Origin: a virus
Reading direction: 5' to 3' (one strand)
Length of the DNA: 63,732 bases
Virus record (IMG/VR): IMGVR_UViG_3300036770_004125
Coordinates: 1 to 63,732 of that record
This document shows positions 42,327-51,119 of the stretch, piece by piece (the stretch's first letter is position 1; each line of letters opens with the position of its first letter). Below the pieces are notes generated by a model. It was given only the letters and a program-made list of their open reading frames with translations, did not search any database and was not told the DNA's origin. The translations under genes and the position numbers were made by a program.

Positions 42327-42421
42327 AAGTTACCAGCATCGTGGGCGATCCGCAAGGGGGTCTGTGCCAGTTTGGAAAGTGGCACAGTGGTGGTTGCCAG
42401 GGGGTCGTGGGGTGCTATGAT
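42327..42421. promoter_or_regulatory. Divergent dyad promoter A
   Basis: Near-perfect dyad 42363-42386. Minus side: 30 bp to TAACTT (42327-42332) for the membrane protein. Plus side: 29 bp to TATGAT (42416-42421) for ncRNA A. Confidence 0.65.
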
Positions 42422-42427
42422 ATGTTC

Positions 42428-42540
42428 ATAAGCAAAGGGGAGCGGGGGCGCCGCGATGATACAAACCAAGTCACTCACCCTGCCTTAAAATAAGTTAGTA
42501 TAAAGTATAAAAAAAGAGGGCGATTGTGCCCTCTTGATTA
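42428..42540 (+). ncRNA. Putative small RNA A of a five-member family
   Basis: Plus-strand transcript predicted from the TATGAT box to the terminator at 42508-42540. It has a hairpin GCGG-GGGCG-CCGC near nt 25-40, then GATGATACAAACCAAG and a CCCTGC stretch shared with RNAs B and C. It contains a 10-codon ORF (MIQTKSLTLP). No protein-length ORF or tRNA features. Convergent with the 152-aa gene. Confidence 0.5.
42508..42540. terminator. Bidirectional terminator A
   Basis: AGAGGGC/GCCCTCT stem (42515-42534) with seven T on the minus strand after the 152-aa gene. The plus side has a weaker T-rich tail. Confidence 0.8.
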
Positions 42541-42543
42541 TAT

Positions 42544-43002
42544 TCACCAGAGACCTTCGTTCACCAGGCGATTGTAAAGAGTGTTAGCAAGTTTGCCGCA
42601 GTGATCACATGCCTTAGCGTACTTAATCTCAGACTTGAGAGCATACTTATCGGTGGTTTTGTAACCGCCGAACTTGTAACGATGTACTGCACTTACCAGT
42701 TTGAGCAGTTGGCGCTTTTTCAGATCTTCGCCCGCCATTTTATAGATGGGGATGAAGAAACGATAATCCTTAATTTCACGGCACTTGGCAAGTTTGTCAA
42801 CGATAACCTTAGATTCTTTGCCCCCAAAATAGGGAGTAAGTTCAACCATCAGGAAAGCATTGAAAGGTGCCAGTTGATCTGCCTTTTTCTTTTGATCCTC
42901 TTGAATCTCATTCAGTGCCTCACTGATAGTTTCAACACTCTTGAGAAAACTATCCTGCAGTTGCTGCAGTTGGGCGGTCAGAGTTTCAATGGTCGCAGTC
43001 AT
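42544..43002 (-). CDS. Coiled-coil protein with CxxC motif
   Basis: 152 aa. N-terminal coiled coil (about 1-45: TLTAQLQQLQDSFLKSVETI and EDQKKKADQL), a middle alpha domain with YFGGKESKVIVDKLAKC, and a C-terminal KACDHCGKLANTLYNRL that may hold a partial zinc site. Unknown function. Its transcript leader is long (TATCTT at 43059-43064), and it ends in a strong terminator. Confidence 0.65.
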   Translation of the reverse strand: MTATIETLTAQLQQLQDSFLKSVETISEALNEIQEDQKKKADQLAPFNAFLMVELTPYFGGKESKVIVDKLAKCREIKDYRFFIPIYKMAGEDLKKRQLLKLVSAVHRYKFGGYKTTDKYALKSEIKYAKACDHCGKLANTLYNRLVNEGLW

Positions 43003-43058
43003 GATAGACTCTTGGGTTGGTGGTGGGTCGGGGCGTTTCGTTTCCCCCCGATGCACAT

Positions 43059-43153
43059 AAGATACGGCAGATTCCGGGGCACCACAAGGGGGTGTGTGCC
43101 AGTTCAGAAACTGTCCCCTAAGACGGTCTTAGGGGTGCCCGATGCCTTACAAT
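43059..43153. promoter_or_regulatory. Divergent dyad promoter B
   Basis: Dyad 43095-43118. Minus side: 30 bp to TATCTT (43059-43064). Plus side: 29 bp to TACAAT (43148-43153) for ncRNA B. A CTAAGAC/GTCTTAG inverted repeat lies in the plus-side gap. Confidence 0.65.
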
Positions 43154-43159
43154 AAGATC

Positions 43160-43270
43160 ACAAGGGAAGGGAACGCGGGCGGCGTGATGATACAAACCAA
43201 GACACTTACCCTGCGATAAAATAATACAATTATAAAGTATAAAAAAAGGGGGCGATTGTGCCCCCATTTG
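43160..43270 (+). ncRNA. Putative small RNA B
   Basis: Same layout as RNA A. The hairpin is ACGC-GGGCG-GCGT: loop kept, stem changed on both sides, which is compensatory relative to RNAs A and C. Shares GATGATACAAACCAAGACAC and a 10-codon ORF (MIQTKTLTLR). Ends at the terminator hairpin 43248-43265. Confidence 0.55.
43241..43265. terminator. Bidirectional terminator B
   Basis: GGGGGC/GCCCCC stem with seven T on the minus strand, just past the 45-aa gene. Confidence 0.8.
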
Positions 43271-43271
43271 A

Positions 43272-43409
43272 TCACTCTTCAGGGCCATAAGCACACTCCA
43301 GAGAGTATGCTTCCAGTTCCTGATCATCCTCATAATAGGATGCCCAATCCTCCTCGGTGGGGATATACTCCTCGTCAATCTGCTGGTAGTCGGTGAAGGA
43401 ATAGGTCAT
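43272..43409 (-). CDS. Tiny acidic tyrosine-rich protein
   Basis: 45 aa, MTYSFTDYQQIDEEYIPTEE then DWASYYEDDQELEAYSLE. Strongly acidic with seven tyrosines and no basic residue. It could mimic nucleic acid or bind a basic host protein (inference). Own promoter (TAATCT) and terminator make it a one-gene unit. Confidence 0.6.
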   Translation of the reverse strand: MTYSFTDYQQIDEEYIPTEEDWASYYEDDQELEAYSLECAYGPEE

Positions 43410-43435
43410 GGGGTGTTCCCTTGGTTGACTCTCTT

Positions 43436-43494
43436 AGATTAGGGGATGGGGGGTGGAAAGTCAACCCCCCTGTGCCAGTTCAGAAAGCGACCAG
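43436..43494 (-). promoter_or_regulatory. Dyad promoter for 43272-43409
   Basis: Dyad 43471-43494, 29 bp, TAATCT (43436-43441). Confidence 0.5.
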
Positions 43495-43719
43495 TTGATC
43501 AATCTCCCACTGGGGGACAGTGTATACTGTGCCGCCGCAGTTCTTTTTCAACCACGCATTGATGTGCTTAGTGGTGGTGGTGCTGTAGGACTGCTCAGTC
43601 CGCATCCAACCCCGACCAGGCACCAGTGCCGCAACTGGGGTGCTGTAGGAGAACAGAACGCAGGTTCCGTTTGCCAGTTCAACCTCAGTGCTGGTGGTGG
43701 TGACTTGATTGACTTTCAT
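43480..43719 (-). CDS. Conserved phage protein (VELANGT family, DUF8033-like)
   Basis: 79 aa, MKVNQVTTTSTEVELANGTC, then LFSYSTPVAALVPGRGWMRT and SYSTTTTKHINAWLKK. I recognise this as a small family widespread in phages (I believe DUF8033), predicted beta sheet plus helix, function unknown. TATAAT promoter with dyad 31 bp upstream. Confidence 0.75.
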   Translation of the reverse strand: MKVNQVTTTSTEVELANGTCVLFSYSTPVAALVPGRGWMRTEQSYSTTTTKHINAWLKKNCGGTVYTVPQWEIDQLVAF

Positions 43720-43742
43720 GGTTCTGGTGGTGAACTGAGATC

Positions 43743-43803
43743 ATTATAAGGGCACCAAGGGAACCACTGCGAGTCCCCTTGTGCCACTTGTCAGGGTGTC
43801 ACA
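43743..43803 (-). promoter_or_regulatory. Dyad promoter for 43480-43719
   Basis: Dyad 43780-43803, 31 bp, consensus TATAAT (43743-43748). Confidence 0.7.
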
Positions 43804-44035
43804 CTGCGGCGAGTGCTTCCACGGGGATCAGCACTTGCTCGCGGATCCAGCGGTGATAGGTTTGACCGATGGATGCCTCAGGATTGCTCAGGAAACTAAT
43901 CAGTTCCTGCTCATCATCAGTGACAAAATTATACACAGCATCAGGATTGCTCCGGAAAGAAACCTTAACATCCTGACCATCAATCTCAACGGAAGCGATG
44001 GCGGAAGATTGAGACTCGGTGAAAGTGAACAGCAT
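43799..44035 (-). CDS. KTSC-like domain protein
   Basis: 78 aa. SSAIASVEIDGQDVKVSFRS (about 10-29) followed by AVYNFVTDDEQELISFLS and GQTYHRWIREQV matches the KTSC pattern (Ser-rich strand, Y-x-F, terminal I-R), a small domain found alone in phages and fused to lysyl-tRNA synthetases. Role in phage unknown. No dyad in the 67-bp gap above, so likely cotranscribed with the 53-aa gene. Confidence 0.65.
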   Translation of the reverse strand: MLFTFTESQSSAIASVEIDGQDVKVSFRSNPDAVYNFVTDDEQELISFLSNPEASIGQTYHRWIREQVLIPVEALAAV

Positions 44036-44102
44036 AATAGAATAAGACCTGTAAGGTTTGTAAGATTGAGCAGTTTAGAGTCTTACTCAGGACTGTTTAA
44101 TC

Positions 44103-44264
44103 TTACGATTCTGCCCAGAGTTGGTGAATCTTACTCATGACATTGCTATAGTCATCAATGGGATCATGTTCATCATCCTCGCAAAACTCACGATTGTTTG
44201 CGACCAAAGAGTAGATCAGATCCCACTCAGATTCAGTAAAGAACTCTTTGATGGTTTGACTCAT
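44103..44264 (-). CDS. Small acidic conserved protein
   Basis: 53 aa, MSQTIKEFFTESEWDLIYSL then CEDDEHDPIDDYSNVMSKIH. Helical and acidic. Proteins with the KEFFT-x-SEWD start recur in T4-like cyanophages, function unknown. Promoter TACAAT with dyad. Confidence 0.7.
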   Translation of the reverse strand: MSQTIKEFFTESEWDLIYSLVANNREFCEDDEHDPIDDYSNVMSKIHQLWAES

Positions 44265-44286
44265 GGGGTTCGTTTGAACTGAGGTT

Positions 44287-44346
44287 ATTGTAGGGGGTGG
44301 GGGGATCTTATGGCATCCCCCCTGTGTCAGTTTCTAGAGTGTCACA
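44287..44346 (-). promoter_or_regulatory. Dyad promoter for 44103-44264 and the KTSC gene
   Basis: Dyad 44323-44346, 30 bp, TACAAT (44287-44292). Confidence 0.65.
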
Positions 44347-44614
44347 CCCCCATCAGAATGGCACGGATGCGGTCACGCTTGCGGGGAGGATTGACCAGAC
44401 TCCAGCGGTTGCGCTGGAGTCGCTGCCCGTGGCGCTTCATAGATGCCCACAGGATGCCCTCTTGCTCCATCTCAACCATAATGGCATGGATGGTGCCCTT
44501 GTGGGAGCGGGGATCCATCCCCAGCATCCACACCAGATCGGAGCAGGTCGTCTCGGGGTTCACCGCCAGCACGGCACGGATGCGGGAACGGATGGAGGAG
44601 TTCAGGGAGCGCAT
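44342..44614 (-). CDS. Winged-helix-like DNA-binding protein
   Basis: 90 aa. SSIRSRIRAVLAVNPETTCS (about 5-24), DLVWMLGMDPRSHKGTIHAI and MVEMEQEGILW fit a winged helix-turn-helix, with the recognition helix near residues 33-49. Very basic C-terminus (KRHGQRLQRNRW, PPRKRDRIR). A candidate transcription factor for the dyad promoters, and it is itself controlled by one (44639-44734). The start after TATACT is chosen; 58 upstream codons run through the promoter. Confidence 0.65.
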   Translation of the reverse strand: MRSLNSSIRSRIRAVLAVNPETTCSDLVWMLGMDPRSHKGTIHAIMVEMEQEGILWASMKRHGQRLQRNRWSLVNPPRKRDRIRAILMGV

Positions 44615-44638
44615 TTGGGGTTCGTTTGAACTGAAGTC

Positions 44639-44734
44639 AGTATAGGGGGCAGGATGGGGGCAGTGCTGGGGTCGGTGTGCCAGTTCATAAGGTGGCACAG
44701 CAGGGTGGCACAGTGCCCCATGATGCCCTATACT
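44639..44734. promoter_or_regulatory. Divergent dyad promoter C
   Basis: Dyad 44676-44699. Minus: 31 bp to TATACT (44639-44644) for the winged-helix gene. Plus: 29 bp to TATACT (44729-44734) for ncRNA C. Confidence 0.65.
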
Positions 44735-44740
44735 AAGATC

Positions 44741-44853
44741 ACAAGGGAAGAGGGAGCGGGGGCGCCGCGATGATACAAAACAAGACACTTACCCTGTCAA
44801 ATTATATTATTAGAATTATAATGAAAAAGAGGGCGATTGTGCCCTCTTGTTTA
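44741..44853 (+). ncRNA. Putative small RNA C
   Basis: Hairpin GCGG-GGGCG-CCGC as in RNA A, then GATGATACAAAACAAGACAC and CCCTG. The ORF starting MIQNKTLTL is not closed here and would run on, so coding of the short peptide is not strictly conserved. Ends at the hairpin 44828-44847 with a T-rich tail. Confidence 0.5.
44824..44853. terminator. Bidirectional terminator C
   Basis: AGAGGGC/GCCCTCT stem. Minus side TTTTTCAT tail after the GP88-like gene; plus side TTGTTTATA. Confidence 0.75.
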
Positions 44854-44856
44854 TAC

Positions 44857-45591
44857 TCAGGCGGTCACGAGTTTCTTACTGTAACCGCTGAACTGTTTGT
44901 TAGCACGACGGGCGCGAATCGCCTTGCCCCATTCAGAACCTGCTTTCTGAGTTCCGTGTACTAACAGCGCAAACGGTTTGTCACCAAAACAGTGAGAATC
45001 GTCGTGATCAACTTCCAAACCTGCGGCGTTAGCATCATCATCCGTCATAAACACTTTGCTATAACGGGTGAAGAATCCTTCATCAATTAGATGATCCCAC
45101 TTGCCACCATAGGATGCGGTCAGGTAGAAGTTGGCAGGCAACTTAAAGTTGAGAAAGAGTTGCAAACTCTTGCTGTAGCAATAGAATTTCAGATCAGGAT
45201 TGCGGTGAGCAACTTCAATCCAGGCATCCAAATAAGCACCGGAGAAAAAGTCACCAGACTCGTGAATCCGCACGAGTTTGGTATTTTTAGTGCGATGATG
45301 TTGGATGCTGTCGTTGATCAGATCCGCAGCAGATCCATTCTGGATTGCATCAACAATCATCTTAAGATTGCTGGCACGATTCTCAAAAACCGCATCATAC
45401 TGCACCTCAGATGATGCAGCAAAACAACGAAACTCGGTGTGTTCGCCATCTTGAATGGTGCGCTTTCCGTTAGCATCAACCACGGCAAAACTCTTGCAAA
45501 ACATAGCACCGGGGCAAGTCTTGCCAGCGGGCAGGTTGAAGATCAGAGTTTGCTTGCCGAGTTTGGCGTTACCTTTGGAAAAGTTCAGCAC
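44857..45591 (-). CDS. GP88-family phage protein
   Basis: 244 aa, GTG start (MLNFSKGNAKLGKQTLIFNL). It has the family hallmarks: PAGKTCPGAMFCKSF (about 21-35), LVRIHESGDFFSGAYLDAWI (about 107-126) and FYCYSKSLQLFL (about 135-146), with a Cys cluster that could bind metal. I recognise it as the mycobacteriophage gp88-type domain, biochemical function unknown. AGGGA lies 9 bp before the GTG. Divergent promoter D above, terminator C below: a one-gene unit. Confidence 0.75.
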   Translation of the reverse strand: MLNFSKGNAKLGKQTLIFNLPAGKTCPGAMFCKSFAVVDANGKRTIQDGEHTEFRCFAASSEVQYDAVFENRASNLKMIVDAIQNGSAADLINDSIQHHRTKNTKLVRIHESGDFFSGAYLDAWIEVAHRNPDLKFYCYSKSLQLFLNFKLPANFYLTASYGGKWDHLIDEGFFTRYSKVFMTDDDANAAGLEVDHDDSHCFGDKPFALLVHGTQKAGSEWGKAIRARRANKQFSGYSKKLVTA

Positions 45592-45616
45592 GGGAGGAAT
45601 CCCTGACGACTTCCAT

Positions 45617-45710
45617 AAGTTACAGCAGAATCAGCACCAGTGCCAGGGTGTTGTGTCAGTTTGGAAAGTGGCACAGCGACTGCCCAATGGTGCTGGCGAT
45701 GCCTTAGAAT
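45617..45710. promoter_or_regulatory. Divergent dyad promoter D
   Basis: Dyad 45652-45675. Minus: 29 bp to TAACTT (45617-45622). Plus: 29 bp to TAGAAT (45705-45710) for ncRNA D. Confidence 0.65.
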
Positions 45711-45716
45711 ATAGGA

Positions 45717-45826
45717 AAGAAAGAAAGGGACGGGAATCCCGACGACGACAACTTATAAGTAACCTGCCCTACCATAAAATAATCTAATATAAAGAATAAA
45801 AAAAGGAGAGTATAACTCTCCTCTTT
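45717..45826 (+). ncRNA. Putative small RNA D
   Basis: Same position and length as the others but the sequence has diverged: hairpin CGGG-AAT-CCCG, the palindrome ACTTATAAGT, then CCTGCCC and ATAAAATAATC. No ATG in the first 60 nt, so this member cannot encode the short peptide. Confidence 0.45.
45797..45826. terminator. Bidirectional terminator D
   Basis: AGGAGAG/CTCTCCT stem, seven T on the minus strand, CTCTTTGTGTT on the plus strand. Confidence 0.8.
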
Positions 45827-45829
45827 GTG

Positions 45830-46018
45830 TTAGAATTCAATCTCCCAATCAGTGTCCCGATTCAGATTGACCCAGAAGTGGTATTTGTGATTCATGGATG
45901 TAACAAATACCTTGTCACCTTTGTTCTGTTCAATGATAACTTCATCCACAGAATCCATCAGGTTAGCAAACCGATTCTTTGCTTTCTTAGACTTAGGAAT
46001 GACAAATGCGGTTTCCAT
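45830..46018 (-). CDS. Small hypothetical protein
   Basis: 62 aa, METAFVIPKSKKAKNRFANL then DEVIIEQNKGDKVFVTSMNH and FWVNLNRDTDWEIEF. A basic start and a beta-strand-rich end. Resembles small proteins seen in cyanophages; role unknown. GAGG 6 bp before the ATG decides the start over one 19 codons up. Terminator D follows. Confidence 0.65.
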   Translation of the reverse strand: METAFVIPKSKKAKNRFANLMDSVDEVIIEQNKGDKVFVTSMNHKYHFWVNLNRDTDWEIEF

Positions 46019-46039
46019 GAGAACCTCATCAACAGTGGT

Positions 46040-46099
46040 AGTATGGCAGGGGATCATGAGAATCACAACCCCCATTGTGCCAGTTTGGAAAGTGTCACA
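46040..46099 (-). promoter_or_regulatory. Dyad promoter for 45830-46018
   Basis: Dyad 46076-46099, 30 bp, CATACT (46040-46045). Confidence 0.5.
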
Positions 46100-46273
46100 T
46101 CAGAAGACCATTTCTTCCAGTGTGGGTTGATCTTGCATTGCATCAGCATAACCACCAGCGATGTCAGCATCAACATCAGAATCAAAATCGCTCGTGATTG
46201 TGTCAAGAATTGACAGAATCTGTTCGCCATTCTGACCAGCGCGAAGCATACCGAGAAGCATTTCTTTAGTCAT
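46100..46273 (-). CDS. Small acidic conserved protein
   Basis: 57 aa, MTKEMLLGMLRAGQNGEQIL then SILDTITSDFDSDVDADIAG. A helical start and acidic tail. The ML-x-M-(L/I)-R-x-G-x-NG-x-(Q/E)IL start is common in cyanophage small ORFs. A GTAAGA/ATAAGA-rich 54-bp leader separates it from the 35-aa gene. Confidence 0.65.
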   Translation of the reverse strand: MTKEMLLGMLRAGQNGEQILSILDTITSDFDSDVDADIAGGYADAMQDQPTLEEMVF

Positions 46274-46327
46274 GATAAGAAAGAATAAGATGGTAAGGTG
46301 TGTAAGATGTGTAAGACTATAAGATTA
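46274..46327. repeat. GTAAGA/ATAAGA short-repeat leader
   Basis: Contains ATGTGTAAGACTATAAGATT, also nearly present at 50383-50417 in the large intergenic region. Confidence 0.6.
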
Positions 46328-46435
46328 TCAGTTTCCGTCAGATTCTTCAGAAACTTCCACGACTTCAATCAGAGGAATGGGAATCCCATCAGGAGTCCAT
46401 TGAATGAGTTCAGATTCAAACAGAATGTCAAACAT
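46328..46435 (-). CDS. Very small hypothetical protein
   Basis: 35 aa, MFDILFESELIQWTPDGIPI then PLIEVVEVSEESDGN. Acidic. Starts 2 bp after the stop of the 45-aa gene (TGATCATG), so translation is coupled. No family recognised. Confidence 0.5.
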   Translation of the reverse strand: MFDILFESELIQWTPDGIPIPLIEVVEVSEESDGN

Positions 46436-46437
46436 GA

Positions 46438-46575
46438 TCAGAAGTCGTTACCAGAGTTGAGAAAGTCAGCGAAAGAAGCATCATCATAAGAATCCTCATC
46501 ATCATCAAAGATGGTAGGATCCTCTACCAATGCCTCATAAGGATCGTAATACAGTTCTTCGGTGTAAGCAGTCAT
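46438..46575 (-). CDS. Tiny highly acidic protein
   Basis: 45 aa, MTAYTEELYYDPYEALVEDP then TIFDDDEDSYDDASFADFLN. Almost no basic residues, similar in character to the 45-aa protein at 43272-43409. A DNA-mimic or adaptor role is speculation. Promoter TATAAT at 46599-46604. Confidence 0.6.
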   Translation of the reverse strand: MTAYTEELYYDPYEALVEDPTIFDDDEDSYDDASFADFLNSGNDF

Positions 46576-46598
46576 GAGAGTGAGTTGCGAACAAAAGA

Positions 46599-46659
46599 AT
46601 TATAGCAGGCAGTTTAGAGACTTGCCTAGGTCTGATGTGCCAGTTAATCAGATGGCACT
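46599..46659 (-). promoter_or_regulatory. Dyad promoter for the 46328-46575 pair
   Basis: Dyad 46636-46659, 31 bp, TATAAT (46599-46604). The gap is nearly identical to that at 46858-46888. Confidence 0.65.
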
Positions 46660-46827
46660 CGTGCCCTTGCTGACCCAGAGTGCCAGTCGCATCGTGCTCG
46701 CTTTCTTCACGGATTGCGAAGGGCGACCAGTAGCGTGGGCGAAGGCTTGCAGATCTTTACGGGTCACATCGGACACCATACCGATCAGAATCTTACGGGC
46801 ACCAGTCAGGAGTTGCTGTTGAGTCAT
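46648..46827 (-). CDS. Small basic hypothetical protein
   Basis: 59 aa, MTQQQLLTGARKILIGMVSD, VTRKDLQAFAHATGRPSQSV, KKASTMRLALWVSKGTSAI. Helical, basic, with a helix-turn-helix-like LQAFAHATGRPSQSVKKA stretch (about 26-43); could bind DNA. Own dyad promoter; stop inside the next dyad. Confidence 0.6.
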   Translation of the reverse strand: MTQQQLLTGARKILIGMVSDVTRKDLQAFAHATGRPSQSVKKASTMRLALWVSKGTSAI

Positions 46828-46851
46828 GGAAGTTCGGTGTTGAACAAGAGA

Positions 46852-46912
46852 ATTGTAGCAGGCAGTTTAGAGACTTGCCTAGGTCTGGTGTGCCAGTTGT
46901 CAAAGTGTCCTT
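46852..46912 (-). promoter_or_regulatory. Dyad promoter for 46648-46827
   Basis: Dyad 46889-46912, 31 bp, TACAAT (46852-46857). Confidence 0.65.
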
Positions 46913-47075
46913 ATGACCTACTTTCCATAAACTCTGCCCAAGCATTAGCATCTGACTCAAATTGAAACAGAGCAATGCCTCCACCCATTTCTTCATCTAT
47001 AACCTGATACCATTGCATCAGAACTTCATTGTCAAGATGATAAACAGAATCAACAGAAAAACGAGGTTCAGTCAT
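46911..47075 (-). CDS. Small hypothetical protein
   Basis: 54 aa, MTEPRFSVDSVYHLDNEVLM then QWYQVIDEEMGGGIALFQFE and DANAWAEFMESRS. Acidic alpha/beta. Overlaps the 49-aa gene by 8 bp, so coupled. Unrecognised. Confidence 0.6.
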   Translation of the reverse strand: MTEPRFSVDSVYHLDNEVLMQWYQVIDEEMGGGIALFQFESDANAWAEFMESRS

Positions 47076-47217
47076 TGAGATAAGGTTCACGGAGGTCTTC
47101 TACGAATGCAAGTGCCTGCATCAATTCAGGGTCTTCATACTGTCTCCATTGTTTCAATGAATCCATTGCCTCTTGAATTGCGAAATGAATGTATTCAAGT
47201 TTTTCGTAGTCAGTCAT
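47068..47217 (-). CDS. Small helical hypothetical protein
   Basis: 49 aa, MTDYEKLEYIHFAIQEAMDS then LKQWRQYEDPELMQALAFVE. All-helical. The ATG at 47217 follows a TACATT box; 17 extra in-frame codons upstream enter the promoter. First gene of a two-gene unit. Confidence 0.6.
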   Translation of the reverse strand: MTDYEKLEYIHFAIQEAMDSLKQWRQYEDPELMQALAFVEDLREPYLND

Positions 47218-47239
47218 GAGTTTCCTCAGGAACAAATAC

Positions 47240-47299
47240 AATGTAGTAGGGATCTTATGAGAACACAAGACCCCTTGTACCAGTTTCTCAACTGTCCAT
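47240..47299 (-). promoter_or_regulatory. Dyad promoter for the 46911-47217 pair
   Basis: Dyad 47276-47299, 30 bp, TACATT (47240-47245). Confidence 0.55.
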
Positions 47300-47713
47300 T
47301 TTCACATGCTGCTCCAGAATACCATAAACATCATCAGAACCAATGAATGTGCCATCTTTCTTATAATAAGAAGTGCTACATTCAACACCAGAACGAGAAT
47401 CAATGGTAGCAGAATTGATCTCCATGATGTTAGAAGTCATCACAGGAAGAAACTGATCAATCAACCAATCCCACACTTCACTGTTGCTATTGAGTTCTTC
47501 AGTGTCACATTCAATCAGAAGTTTGCCACCACTGATGCGAACATAATCAGCAAAGTCTAGATCAAGGTTATCATTAGAATCAAGACCATAAAACTCAAAG
47601 ATAGAGTTTTCCTCTTGCACACAACGAACAGAAAGTCCATCCAGATAGGATTGAAGATCAAAATTGTCAACAACTTCACACTTAGCGGTGGCAACAAATT
47701 GAGTGTAGGACAT
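47288..47713 (-). CDS. Hypothetical acidic protein
   Basis: 141 aa, MSYTQFVATAKCEVVDNFDL, middle VRISGGKLLIECDTEELNSN, end DDVYGILEQHVKMDS. Alternating strand/helix pattern, acidic. No family recognised. Nine bp below the 53-aa gene and sharing its leader string CCTGAGACACCAC before the ATG; no Shine-Dalgarno match in that leader. Confidence 0.65.
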   Translation of the reverse strand: MSYTQFVATAKCEVVDNFDLQSYLDGLSVRCVQEENSIFEFYGLDSNDNLDLDFADYVRISGGKLLIECDTEELNSNSEVWDWLIDQFLPVMTSNIMEINSATIDSRSGVECSTSYYKKDGTFIGSDDVYGILEQHVKMDS

Positions 47714-47722
47714 AGTGGTGTC

Positions 47723-47884
47723 TCAGGAAAGAAGTTGGGAAAAGTTGTCAACAACAATTTGGCAGGCAATTCTTTGAACTTCATCCATTTGCCCCTCATC
47801 ATCAAACTGTGTTGCGAGAAGACAAATCAAATCCTCCTGGATTTGTTCACGGACAGAAAGAAGATCCGTTTGAGAAAGTGACAT
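47723..47884 (-). CDS. Small helical hypothetical protein
   Basis: 53 aa, MSLSQTDLLSVREQIQEDLI then FDDEGQMDEVQRIACQIVVD. Two amphipathic helices. Heads a two-gene unit with the 141-aa gene. Unrecognised. Confidence 0.6.
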   Translation of the reverse strand: MSLSQTDLLSVREQIQEDLICLLATQFDDEGQMDEVQRIACQIVVDNFSQLLS

Positions 47885-47908
47885 GGTGGTGTCTCAGGAA
47901 CGAATGTA

Positions 47909-47967
47909 ATGTAACAGGAATCTTGGGGTCTTACAAGGTCTGATGTGCCAGTTTCTTAAGTGTCCAC
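47909..47967 (-). promoter_or_regulatory. Dyad promoter for the 47288-47884 pair
   Basis: Dyad 47944-47967, 29 bp, TTACAT (47909-47914). Confidence 0.5.
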
Positions 47968-48018
47968 AGATACAACAAATTGACTCCTAAGTGATTGAAT
48001 TTAAACACAGCAATCCAA

Positions 48019-48138
48019 TCAGGAATCGTCCTTCTTTTTGTTATTCATCTGTGTCACTTTTGATTTATTATGTCCTGTTTTATTGCGCCGGAGACAGGAA
48101 TACCAACTCCCTCTTTTATAATAATCATAAGAACACAT
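48019..48138 (-). CDS. Tiny basic conserved cyanophage protein
   Basis: 39 aa, MCSYDYYKRGSWYSCLRRNK ... VTQMNNKKKDDS. The GSWYSCLRRN core is familiar from small cyanophage proteins. Two Cys and many basic residues, function unknown. No dyad upstream; it may be read with the 42-aa gene. Confidence 0.65.
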   Translation of the reverse strand: MCSYDYYKRGSWYSCLRRNKTGHNKSKVTQMNNKKKDDS

Positions 48139-48251
48139 AATGCATGTAAGAATCTTAATTCCTTATCAGATTGACTCTTTATCCCGTAGGAGAGTTCAAG
48201 TGCTGATGATAAGAATTATGAATTCTTATGATTTATTTATAAAATTATATC

Positions 48252-48380
48252 TTACATAAACTCCATCAGATAGTAATCAACTGTAATCTCCAGTTCTGCT
48301 GCCTTCTGTTCAATATCTTCTCCTGTGAGTTCCATAACCCAATAGGAGAGCATCTGCTGTTCTTCGGAGGTGAATTCCAT
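48252..48380 (-). CDS. Tiny acidic protein
   Basis: 42 aa, MEFTSEEQQMLSYWVMELTG then EDIEQKAAELEITVDYYLME. Helical; the ending resembles a small HTH-like turn (DIEQKAAELEITVDYY). GAGG-like site absent. Unrecognised. Confidence 0.55.
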   Translation of the reverse strand: MEFTSEEQQMLSYWVMELTGEDIEQKAAELEITVDYYLMEFM

Positions 48381-48462
48381 GGGTTTCAGTGGTTACAACC
48401 TATCTTCAAAGGGGACAAACCTAGTCTAGCAGGAATCTTAGAGTCTTGTCAAGCCCCCCCCC

Positions 48463-48669
48463 TCAGAGTGCCATGACAAGAGTGGTTTCTCTATCTTCAC
48501 CAGGAAGATCTTGGAGTTTCTGATGAATCTTATCAAACTTATTGGCAAGATTCCAATAATAAGCAGATACATGAGTATCCTGACCATTCTTTTGTGCCTG
48601 TTCTTCTCTTACATACAGAACATGCATAATGTCCAGAATCTCACCAGAAGTCAAAGAAATAGAAGTCAT
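48463..48669 (-). CDS. Small helical hypothetical protein
   Basis: 68 aa, MTSISLTSGEILDIMHVLYV then VSAYYWNLANKFDKIHQKLQ. All-helical. Start after the TAAGAT box; 18 further in-frame codons upstream are promoter. Unrecognised. Confidence 0.6.
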   Translation of the reverse strand: MTSISLTSGEILDIMHVLYVREEQAQKNGQDTHVSAYYWNLANKFDKIHQKLQDLPGEDRETTLVMAL

Positions 48670-48691
48670 GGGGTCTTTGTATGACTCTGAT

Positions 48692-48785
48692 ATCTTAAGG
48701 GTCTTCCTGGCGATCCTAGGCACCTCTCAGACAGTTTCCAAAGTGGCACAGCATCTCCACATGAGACCCTGCCATGCCTTAGAAT
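48692..48785. promoter_or_regulatory. Divergent dyad promoter E
   Basis: Dyad 48727-48750. Minus: 29 bp to TAAGAT (48692-48697). Plus: 29 bp to TAGAAT (48780-48785) for ncRNA E. Confidence 0.6.
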
Positions 48786-48791
48786 ATGATC

Positions 48792-48905
48792 ACAAGCAAA
48801 GGAGGTCTGGGGTAAGACCTGATGTAAACCATCGCCACCGCCCCTGCAATGAAATAATTGTAAATAAACATAAAAAAAGAGTGCCCATAAGACACTCTTA
48901 TATTT
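48792..48905 (+). ncRNA. Putative small RNA E
   Basis: Hairpin AGGTCT-GGGGTA-AGACCT at the position of the GGGCG hairpin in RNAs A-C, then GATG, CCCCTGC and ATAATTG, ending at the hairpin 48878-48898. The ATG here is followed directly by TAA, so no peptide. Confidence 0.45.
48871..48905. terminator. Bidirectional terminator E
   Basis: AGAGTG/CACTCT stem, seven T on the minus strand after the 134-aa gene, TTATATTT on the plus strand. Confidence 0.8.
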
Positions 48906-49663: not shown

Positions 49664-49723
49664 AATATAAGGGAAATCTGATGCCTGTCCAGGGTCTTAT
49701 GTGCAACTTTTTGAACTGGCACA
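49664..49723 (-). promoter_or_regulatory. Dyad promoter for 49385-49639
   Basis: Dyad 49700-49723, 30 bp, TATATT (49664-49669). On the plus side TATTAT (49753-49758) is also 29 bp from the dyad. Confidence 0.6.
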
Positions 49724-50582: not shown

Positions 50583-51119
50583 ATGAAAATAACATCACGG
50601 AAAGTATCAGAAATTGAAGGTCTAGAGAATTATAAAGACTACTTCGTTACAATTAAAGGAGAAGTCTATTCTTCAAAGTATAATAAGATTCGTAAGTTAA
50701 AACCTTGTTACCTTACTACAAAAGGTTCTTATCAGATTGTTCGTTTATCTGATGGTAAGGGTAAAACAAAGAACTTTTATGTACATAGACTCGTTGCACA
50801 ATTGTTCTTATTAAATGTAAATGAATCTTGGGCAGTAGAACATATCAATGGGGATCTTGAAGATAACTCTGTTGACAATCTAAGATGGGCAGGTAGAAAA
50901 ATATCTAAAGATTCTGATGAGTTGGATAGTGAAAGAATCTATCTTGGTGATGACATCAGTAATTACATTAAACTTGTTCATTCTGCCTCAGTGCAAAAGG
51001 GAATCCCAGTACCAGGAAAACTTGAGTTCTTTCATGGTATGATCAATCAGGCAATGGAAGATTATATTAACAGATTTGGTCTAAAGAAGACAATGTACCA
51101 GATAGAGCATTCTTCATGA
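50583..51119 (+). CDS. HNH homing endonuclease with NUMOD4-like region
   Basis: 178 aa, the only gene on the plus strand in the window. The N-terminal IEGLENYKDYFVTIKGEVYS resembles NUMOD4. The HNH core is FYVHRLVAQLFL (H68) and VEHINGDLEDNSVDNLRWA (H87, N95, N99). The C-terminal LEFFHGMINQAMEDYINRF is helical. Likely a free-standing homing endonuclease that cuts related phage genomes lacking it. Tail-to-tail overlap of 6 bp with the next gene, consistent with insertion of a selfish gene. Confidence 0.85.
   Translation: MKITSRKVSEIEGLENYKDYFVTIKGEVYSSKYNKIRKLKPCYLTTKGSYQIVRLSDGKGKTKNFYVHRLVAQLFLLNVNESWAVEHINGDLEDNSVDNLRWAGRKISKDSDELDSERIYLGDDISNYIKLVHSASVQKGIPVPGKLEFFHGMINQAMEDYINRFGLKKTMYQIEHSS

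Follow-up and report, generated by a model that had tools for sequence, protein, structure and literature searches.

What does a phage transcribe from the plus strand of a region whose genes lie on the minus strand? The question is raised by IMGVR_UViG_3300036770_004125, a T4-like cyanophage record of 63.7 kb that was analysed whole (hereafter the window) and whose closest annotated relatives belong to the Synechococcus phages in the Kyanoviridae, S-SRM01 first. Many of its minus-strand genes at 42-49 kb are preceded by an inverted repeat, TGTGCCAGTT-N4-AACTGGCACA, and at five of these dyads a second -10 box faces the plus strand. Here we describe the five predicted small RNAs (A-E) downstream of these boxes and conclude with high confidence that they and their homologues in other cyanophages constitute an RNA family. 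The family is conserved, with up to 7 copies per genome, in large cyanophages from both lakes and the ocean, among them the cultured P-SSM2, S-SRM01 and B23, and sequence comparison suggests that such viruses deploy a set of small RNAs in early infection. To our knowledge, few phage small RNAs have been described and most are single-copy. If true, our interpretation would add an unannotated layer to the early takeover of picocyanobacteria by large cyanophages.

Divergent promoters and the five predicted RNAs

A preliminary description of this region had placed a plus-strand -10 box at exactly 29 bp from the dyads that begin at 42363, 43095, 44676, 45652 and 48727. All five dyads are 24 bp long, and in every case the hexamer lies exactly 29 bp beyond. 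Across the window, 37 sites resemble the dyad; 7 of them have a good plus-strand -10 box at offset 29, whereas each other offset has 0-4 such sites. On the minus strand, the boxes of the window dyads lie 29-31 bp away. Altogether, about 25 dyads of the TGTGCCAGTT-N4-AACTGGCACA type occur across 39719-63630 of the window, with -10 boxes 29-31 bp off, and they are predicted to be a family of early-promoter elements. Similar dyads are also present in S-SRM01, B23, S-SSM7 and P-SSM2. A sixth divergent dyad in the window (49700-49723) has a plus-strand TATTAT at 29 bp; no small RNA of this family lies downstream of it, and a plus-strand transcript from it would run antisense into a minus-strand gene.

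After the -10 box, A-E share one layout: the leader is rich in purines and is followed by a hairpin, a linker and the ACCCTGC-like tail, after which come A/T-rich sequence and a 3' hairpin. The hairpin and ACCCTGC-like stretch that had been reported are thus present, together with the linker, in 5/5 copies. Dyad A (42363-42386, TGTGCCAGTTTGGAAAGTGGCACA), an operator-like inverted repeat common to early promoters, is followed on the plus strand by TATGAT (42416-42421), with a -35-like TTGCCA 16 bp upstream of this box. Predicted RNA A (42428-42535, plus strand, class I) comprises a hairpin at 42442-42454 (GCGG-gggcg-CCGC), a linker at 42455-42474, a tail at 42475-42483 and a bidirectional hairpin at 42514-42535. 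For RNA B (43160-43265, plus strand, class I), the dyad is at 43095-43118, the TACAAT box at 43148-43153 (plus strand), the hairpin at 43173-43185 (ACGC-gggcg-GCGT), the linker at 43186-43205, the tail at 43206-43214 and the 3' hairpin, which has a terminator score on the minus strand only, at 43248-43265. RNA C (44741-44848, plus strand, class I) follows dyad 44676-44699 and a plus-strand TATACT (44729-44734), with its hairpin at 44756-44768, linker at 44769-44788, tail at 44789-44797 (an ACCCTGT variant) and bidirectional hairpin at 44827-44848. The other two copies have the plus-strand box TAGAAT. In RNA D (45717-45826, plus strand, class II) the dyad (45652-45675) and box (45705-45710) precede a hairpin at 45727-45740 (GGGA-cgggaa-TCCC), a linker at 45741-45763, a tail at 45764-45772 and a 3' hairpin at 45800-45826. 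In RNA E (48792-48899, plus strand, class III) the dyad (48727-48750) and box (48780-48785) precede a hairpin at 48803-48820 (AGGTCT-ggggta-AGACCT), a linker at 48821-48838, a tail at 48839-48847 and a 3' hairpin at 48877-48899, again with a minus-strand terminator score only.

The 3' hairpin of each copy is common to the small RNA and the converging minus-strand gene, and had been proposed to terminate both. This holds for the minus-strand genes, where all five are strong terminators with a hairpin and a T-run, and is weakly supported for the plus-strand RNAs: a simple scan scores a plus-strand terminator in A, C and D alone, and the T-runs there are poor. Because the plus-strand terminators are weak, the 3' ends and the length of ~110 nt are estimates.

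One family with a covarying hairpin

Copies A, B and C are similar over 83 nt, and pattern scans of IMG/VR revealed that further uncultured cyanophages have this core; five candidates from the loosest pattern (L016, L021, L025, L027 and L028) were rejected as chance matches within coding sequence. A covariance model, R1, built from 20 ungapped class I sequences with D and E excluded, was run over 234 kb and recovered D (27.1 bits, E 7e-5) and E (22.8 bits, E 0.0019) as well as A (81.3 bits), B (81.5 bits) and C (78.0 bits). A second model, R3, built from class II and III copies with A-C excluded, recovered A (51.2 bits, E 1.5e-9), B (48.4 bits, E 7.5e-9) and C (42.3 bits, E 2.4e-7) in the window. 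Since each model recovers the copies withheld from it, A-E represent one family and not five loose resemblances. D and E had been described as different in sequence but still carrying a hairpin; the hairpin is there, and the difference was overdrawn, as both are recognisable members of the family. Neither model found a further credible site within the 63.7-kb window. The tail motif is above threshold at exactly five places in the window, namely A-E, and shuffled sequence (197 kb) gave ~3 chance matches.

The class I helix is 100% paired, with a covariation of 0.520 versus 0.151 +/- 0.039 in shuffled alignments and at most 0.209 when the helix was slid, and two of its four pairs are altered on both sides (G-C/A-U; G-C/C-G/U-A). 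The class II/III helix is 92.6% paired, with a covariation of 0.787 versus 0.318 +/- 0.058 when shuffled and at most 0.281 when slid. The class II/III alignment contains G-U pairs in the plus-strand reading, five of them within one column, which therefore point to a plus-strand RNA. As the aligned sequences are related, the shuffles are not a strict test; the two separate alignments nonetheless agree. There are 18 distinct stems among 36 copies, and a table of 41 copies contains three loop types (GGGCG/AGAGA/AGAA, CGGGAA/CGGAAA and RGGGTA/GATGTA) and linkers of 17-23 nt; its hairpins were picked by best-stem search, which at B23 copy 112667 chose a stem that differs from the one considered homologous on visual inspection. 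The covariation analysis of the five loci and their homologues, which had been suggested as a check, thus revealed compensatory changes in two independent alignments, and together with the homologues it strongly supports the view that the RNA structure is under selection and that these phage small RNAs form a family not described before.

Two additional pairings, a loop-tail pseudoknot and a leader-tail outer helix, were rejected since self-pairing did not exceed that with permuted partners (p 0.37 and 0.29, respectively). Single-sequence folds of A-E pair the tail partly with the leader in some copies, with no comparative support. A peptide encoded by GATGATACAAACC...TAA was ruled out because stop codons in homologues interrupt the short frame of A and B: the MIQTKSLTLP* of A is cut to MIQNK* in L007 and to MTQN* in L013. 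No transfer RNA (tRNA) or transfer-messenger RNA was identified by ARAGORN, and Rfam release 15 gave no match at gathering score in the window, with chance-level matches only at E up to 5, in agreement with the initial impression that no tRNA or known RNA family is present. With promoters of their own, noncoding sequence and a conserved structure, A-E have, by sequence, the character expected of trans-acting bacterial or phage small RNAs.

Distribution in phages and hosts

R1 was run on 15 IMG/VR records in full, three of them near-identical (G002-G004), and every record has copies, clustered in one region each; the 2-7 R1 matches per record were counted at E up to 1, and the weakest are uncertain. 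B23 has 7 copies, every one in an unannotated gap and on the strand opposite to the genes, S-SRM01 has 2, both preceded by the dyad, and S-SSM7 has 1 weak copy. The single copy of Prochlorococcus phage P-SSM2 lies at 66471-66548 of NC_006883 on the minus strand, combines the dyad, the 29-bp spacing, TATAAT and a class III-like hairpin, and was detected at E 0.0035 with R1, whose training set excludes it, and at E 2.7e-9 with R3, whose training set contains it. The latter set also included the class II/III B23 copies, the S-SRM01 copies, D and E, so that their R3 scores are those of training sequences. Profile models were needed for the cultured-phage copies because a nucleotide search of cultured phages matched the dyad alone. 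At the thresholds used, R3 found no match in 17 other phage genomes, including T4, syn9, S-PM2 and S-CRM01. The cultured carriers, S-SSM7 with its weak copy included, have genomes of 233-252 kb, and the 17 phages lacking a match have genomes of at most 229 kb. In addition, 151 Cyanobiaceae genomes contain no copies beyond chance, and none of 84,980 genomes contains the core pattern. The conservation of dyad and spacing in S-SRM01, several B23 copies and P-SSM2 fits a putative co-regulation of the RNAs with the early genes.

The tail occurs without the hairpin

The tail has the consensus CAC-YYACCCUGC-N3-GAAAUAAU; it is C-rich, conserved and unpaired in the consensus. Through weak R1 matches, we identified ACCCTGC-N3-GAAATAAT-TATAAA in other phages without the hairpin or the linker. 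In 31/31 of these headless copies, a -10 hexamer lies exactly 12 nt 5' of ACCCTGC; the script allowed gaps of 9-15 nt and required a good -10 box, and the constancy is real inside this range. The tail would therefore start ~6 nt from the predicted 5' end of the RNA. No headless copy was observed in the window. Because these other phages have the tail and no hairpin, the tail and not the hairpin may be the functional core, and the simplest reading is that the tail would be the working part and the head an addition. Long A/T-rich inverted repeats (AGTATAAAGAAT...ATTCTTTATACTTAGTT) lie 3' of many tail modules of the uncultured phages (L005, L013, L015, L018-L020 and L023).

Proposed mechanism and alternatives

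Most likely, A-E are trans-acting early RNAs that would use the C-rich tail, via either pairing with messenger RNA (mRNA) or protein binding. Each copy has a sigma70-type -10 box, which in this phage would be fired divergently with an early gene via the common dyad, so that host RNA polymerase would make the small RNA and the early-gene transcript simultaneously. The 5' hairpin may shield the RNA or display the tail. We take the unpaired tail as the probable active part because the headless copies retain nothing else and place it ~6 nt from the predicted 5' end; in trans, it would most likely pair with G-rich sequence around the translation starts of host or phage mRNAs. Base pairing is favoured because the tail is conserved, is left unpaired by the consensus structure and starts close to the 5' end of the headless RNAs, and also because multi-copy RNAs with C-rich motifs elsewhere pair: the multi-copy LhrC RNAs of Listeria, like 5'-seed RNAs such as RybB, pair with mRNA translation-start regions. 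The complete proposal, that these are multi-copy early noncoding RNAs acting in trans by tail pairing with mRNAs, seems to us evenly balanced between right and wrong.

Several observations weigh against it. The tails of B23 vary (TTCGCCTGC, TTTACCTGC and TTCTCCTGC), while a strict single-target seed should stay constant. Antisense pairing to host mRNAs had been suggested as a check, and neither the 12-mer nor the 17-base tail complement has a conserved site in 31-41 Cyanobium genomes, which led us to reject antisense to a conserved host sequence. Within the window, the tail complement is not in excess, and the plus-strand terminators are poor, as described above. The best non-self site in the window pairs RNA D (45715-45791) with the leader of the divergent GP88-family gene (45570-45625) at -38.8 kcal/mol, which beats unrelated places by 0.3 kcal/mol only, so this predicted antisense pairing is a weak lead.

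More tentatively, the family may represent a modular RNA regulon of large cyanophages, in which many short early RNAs, located between early genes, have one common C-rich tail that acts on a common partner, with a head that is exchangeable (three classes) or missing, in which case the tail is close to the 5' end. A phage operator would drive part of these RNAs divergently from the early genes.

Protein binding is almost as probable as base pairing. In its specific form, which we consider possible rather than probable, the early copies would jointly titrate a host or phage RNA-binding protein, or act as its cofactor, on the principle of CsrB or 6S RNA. The divergent paralogues retain the fold and the unpaired motifs while the stems drift freely, the loops are purine-rich, and the search for mRNA targets in the Cyanobium genomes found none. 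In addition, AAAUAAU recalls the UAA triplets selected by RB69 RegA, as given in a title cited in PMC3014915. However, the headless copies dispense with hairpin and linker entirely, and the AAUAAU portion is loose in B23.

If the hairpin and tail were instead operator or pause elements near early promoters, with functionless transcripts, the fixed promoter-to-module spacing of the headless copies would be explained, as would the location of all copies between early genes, many of them adjoining bidirectional hairpins. We regard this as improbable: a DNA-binding palindrome should hold its sequence, yet the stems covary through many sequences with G-U pairs, and in classes I-III the module is found ~50 nt farther downstream. 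In T4, short transcripts prime replication at R-loop origins. Similar priming in the A/T-rich stretch downstream would suit the clustering of promoters, short RNAs and A/T-rich DNA in one region, but is highly unlikely, as an origin has no need of 5-7 structured copies per genome whose hairpin covaries, and most copies end at terminator-like hairpins. Least credible of all is mimicry of a host repeat of clustered regularly interspaced short palindromic repeats (CRISPR) by an anti-CRISPR RNA, since, although a small phage RNA with a hairpin and conserved flank would be apt, the model matches no repeat arrays in the 151 Cyanobiaceae genomes (the host of this phage is not identified), the core pattern is missing from the 84,980 genomes and the conserved tail exceeds a repeat handle in length.

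Comparison with known RNAs

LhrC of Listeria, too, is a set of 5-7 related small RNAs in which a C-rich motif is left unpaired; these RNAs are chromosomal and from Firmicutes. Yfr1 of picocyanobacteria also has a hairpin, a conserved single-stranded core and a 3' hairpin, but it is host-encoded, has another core sequence and gave no Rfam match even at E 5. None of the cyanophage RNAs in reviews and genome papers (manA, wcaG, PhotoRC-II, glnA, abiF and CfrI) fits. The first five are, like A-E, structured RNAs of T4-like cyanophages (PMC2864571, PMC9964418); manA, wcaG and glnA are cis-regulatory, and none of the five has an Rfam match in the region. CfrI of cyanophage S-PM2 is likewise a small noncoding RNA of a cyanomyovirus, but it is a ~225-nt antisense to psbA (PMC12197685), whereas the A-E family is multi-copy and its members do not lie antisense to a gene body; no convincing member was found in S-PM2. 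The B23 genome paper names tRNAs and no other noncoding RNA, and we found no description of the A-E family in the open-access literature, most subscription journals being outside this coverage.

Neighbouring genes and motifs

The GP88-family gene (PF17338, Pfam E 1.9e-46) occupies 44857-45591 on the minus strand and is convergent with RNA C and divergent from RNA D. In S-SRM01, the first RNA copy is followed by a hypothetical protein annotated as 'Gp37/Gp68-like'. A leader motif, GTCGTCAGGGATTCCTCCC, lies directly 5' of early-gene start codons, that of the GP88 gene included, and is conserved across several phages; it is found at 45610 and 41585 of the window (minus strand) and at L018:4020, L019:10232, L020:1435 and L026:406, reading GTCGTCAGGAATC in L020 and L026. 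Finally, a plus-strand gene of 178 aa at 50583-51119 of the window resembles an HNH-type endonuclease by eye, and its surroundings are rich in short TAAGA repeats.
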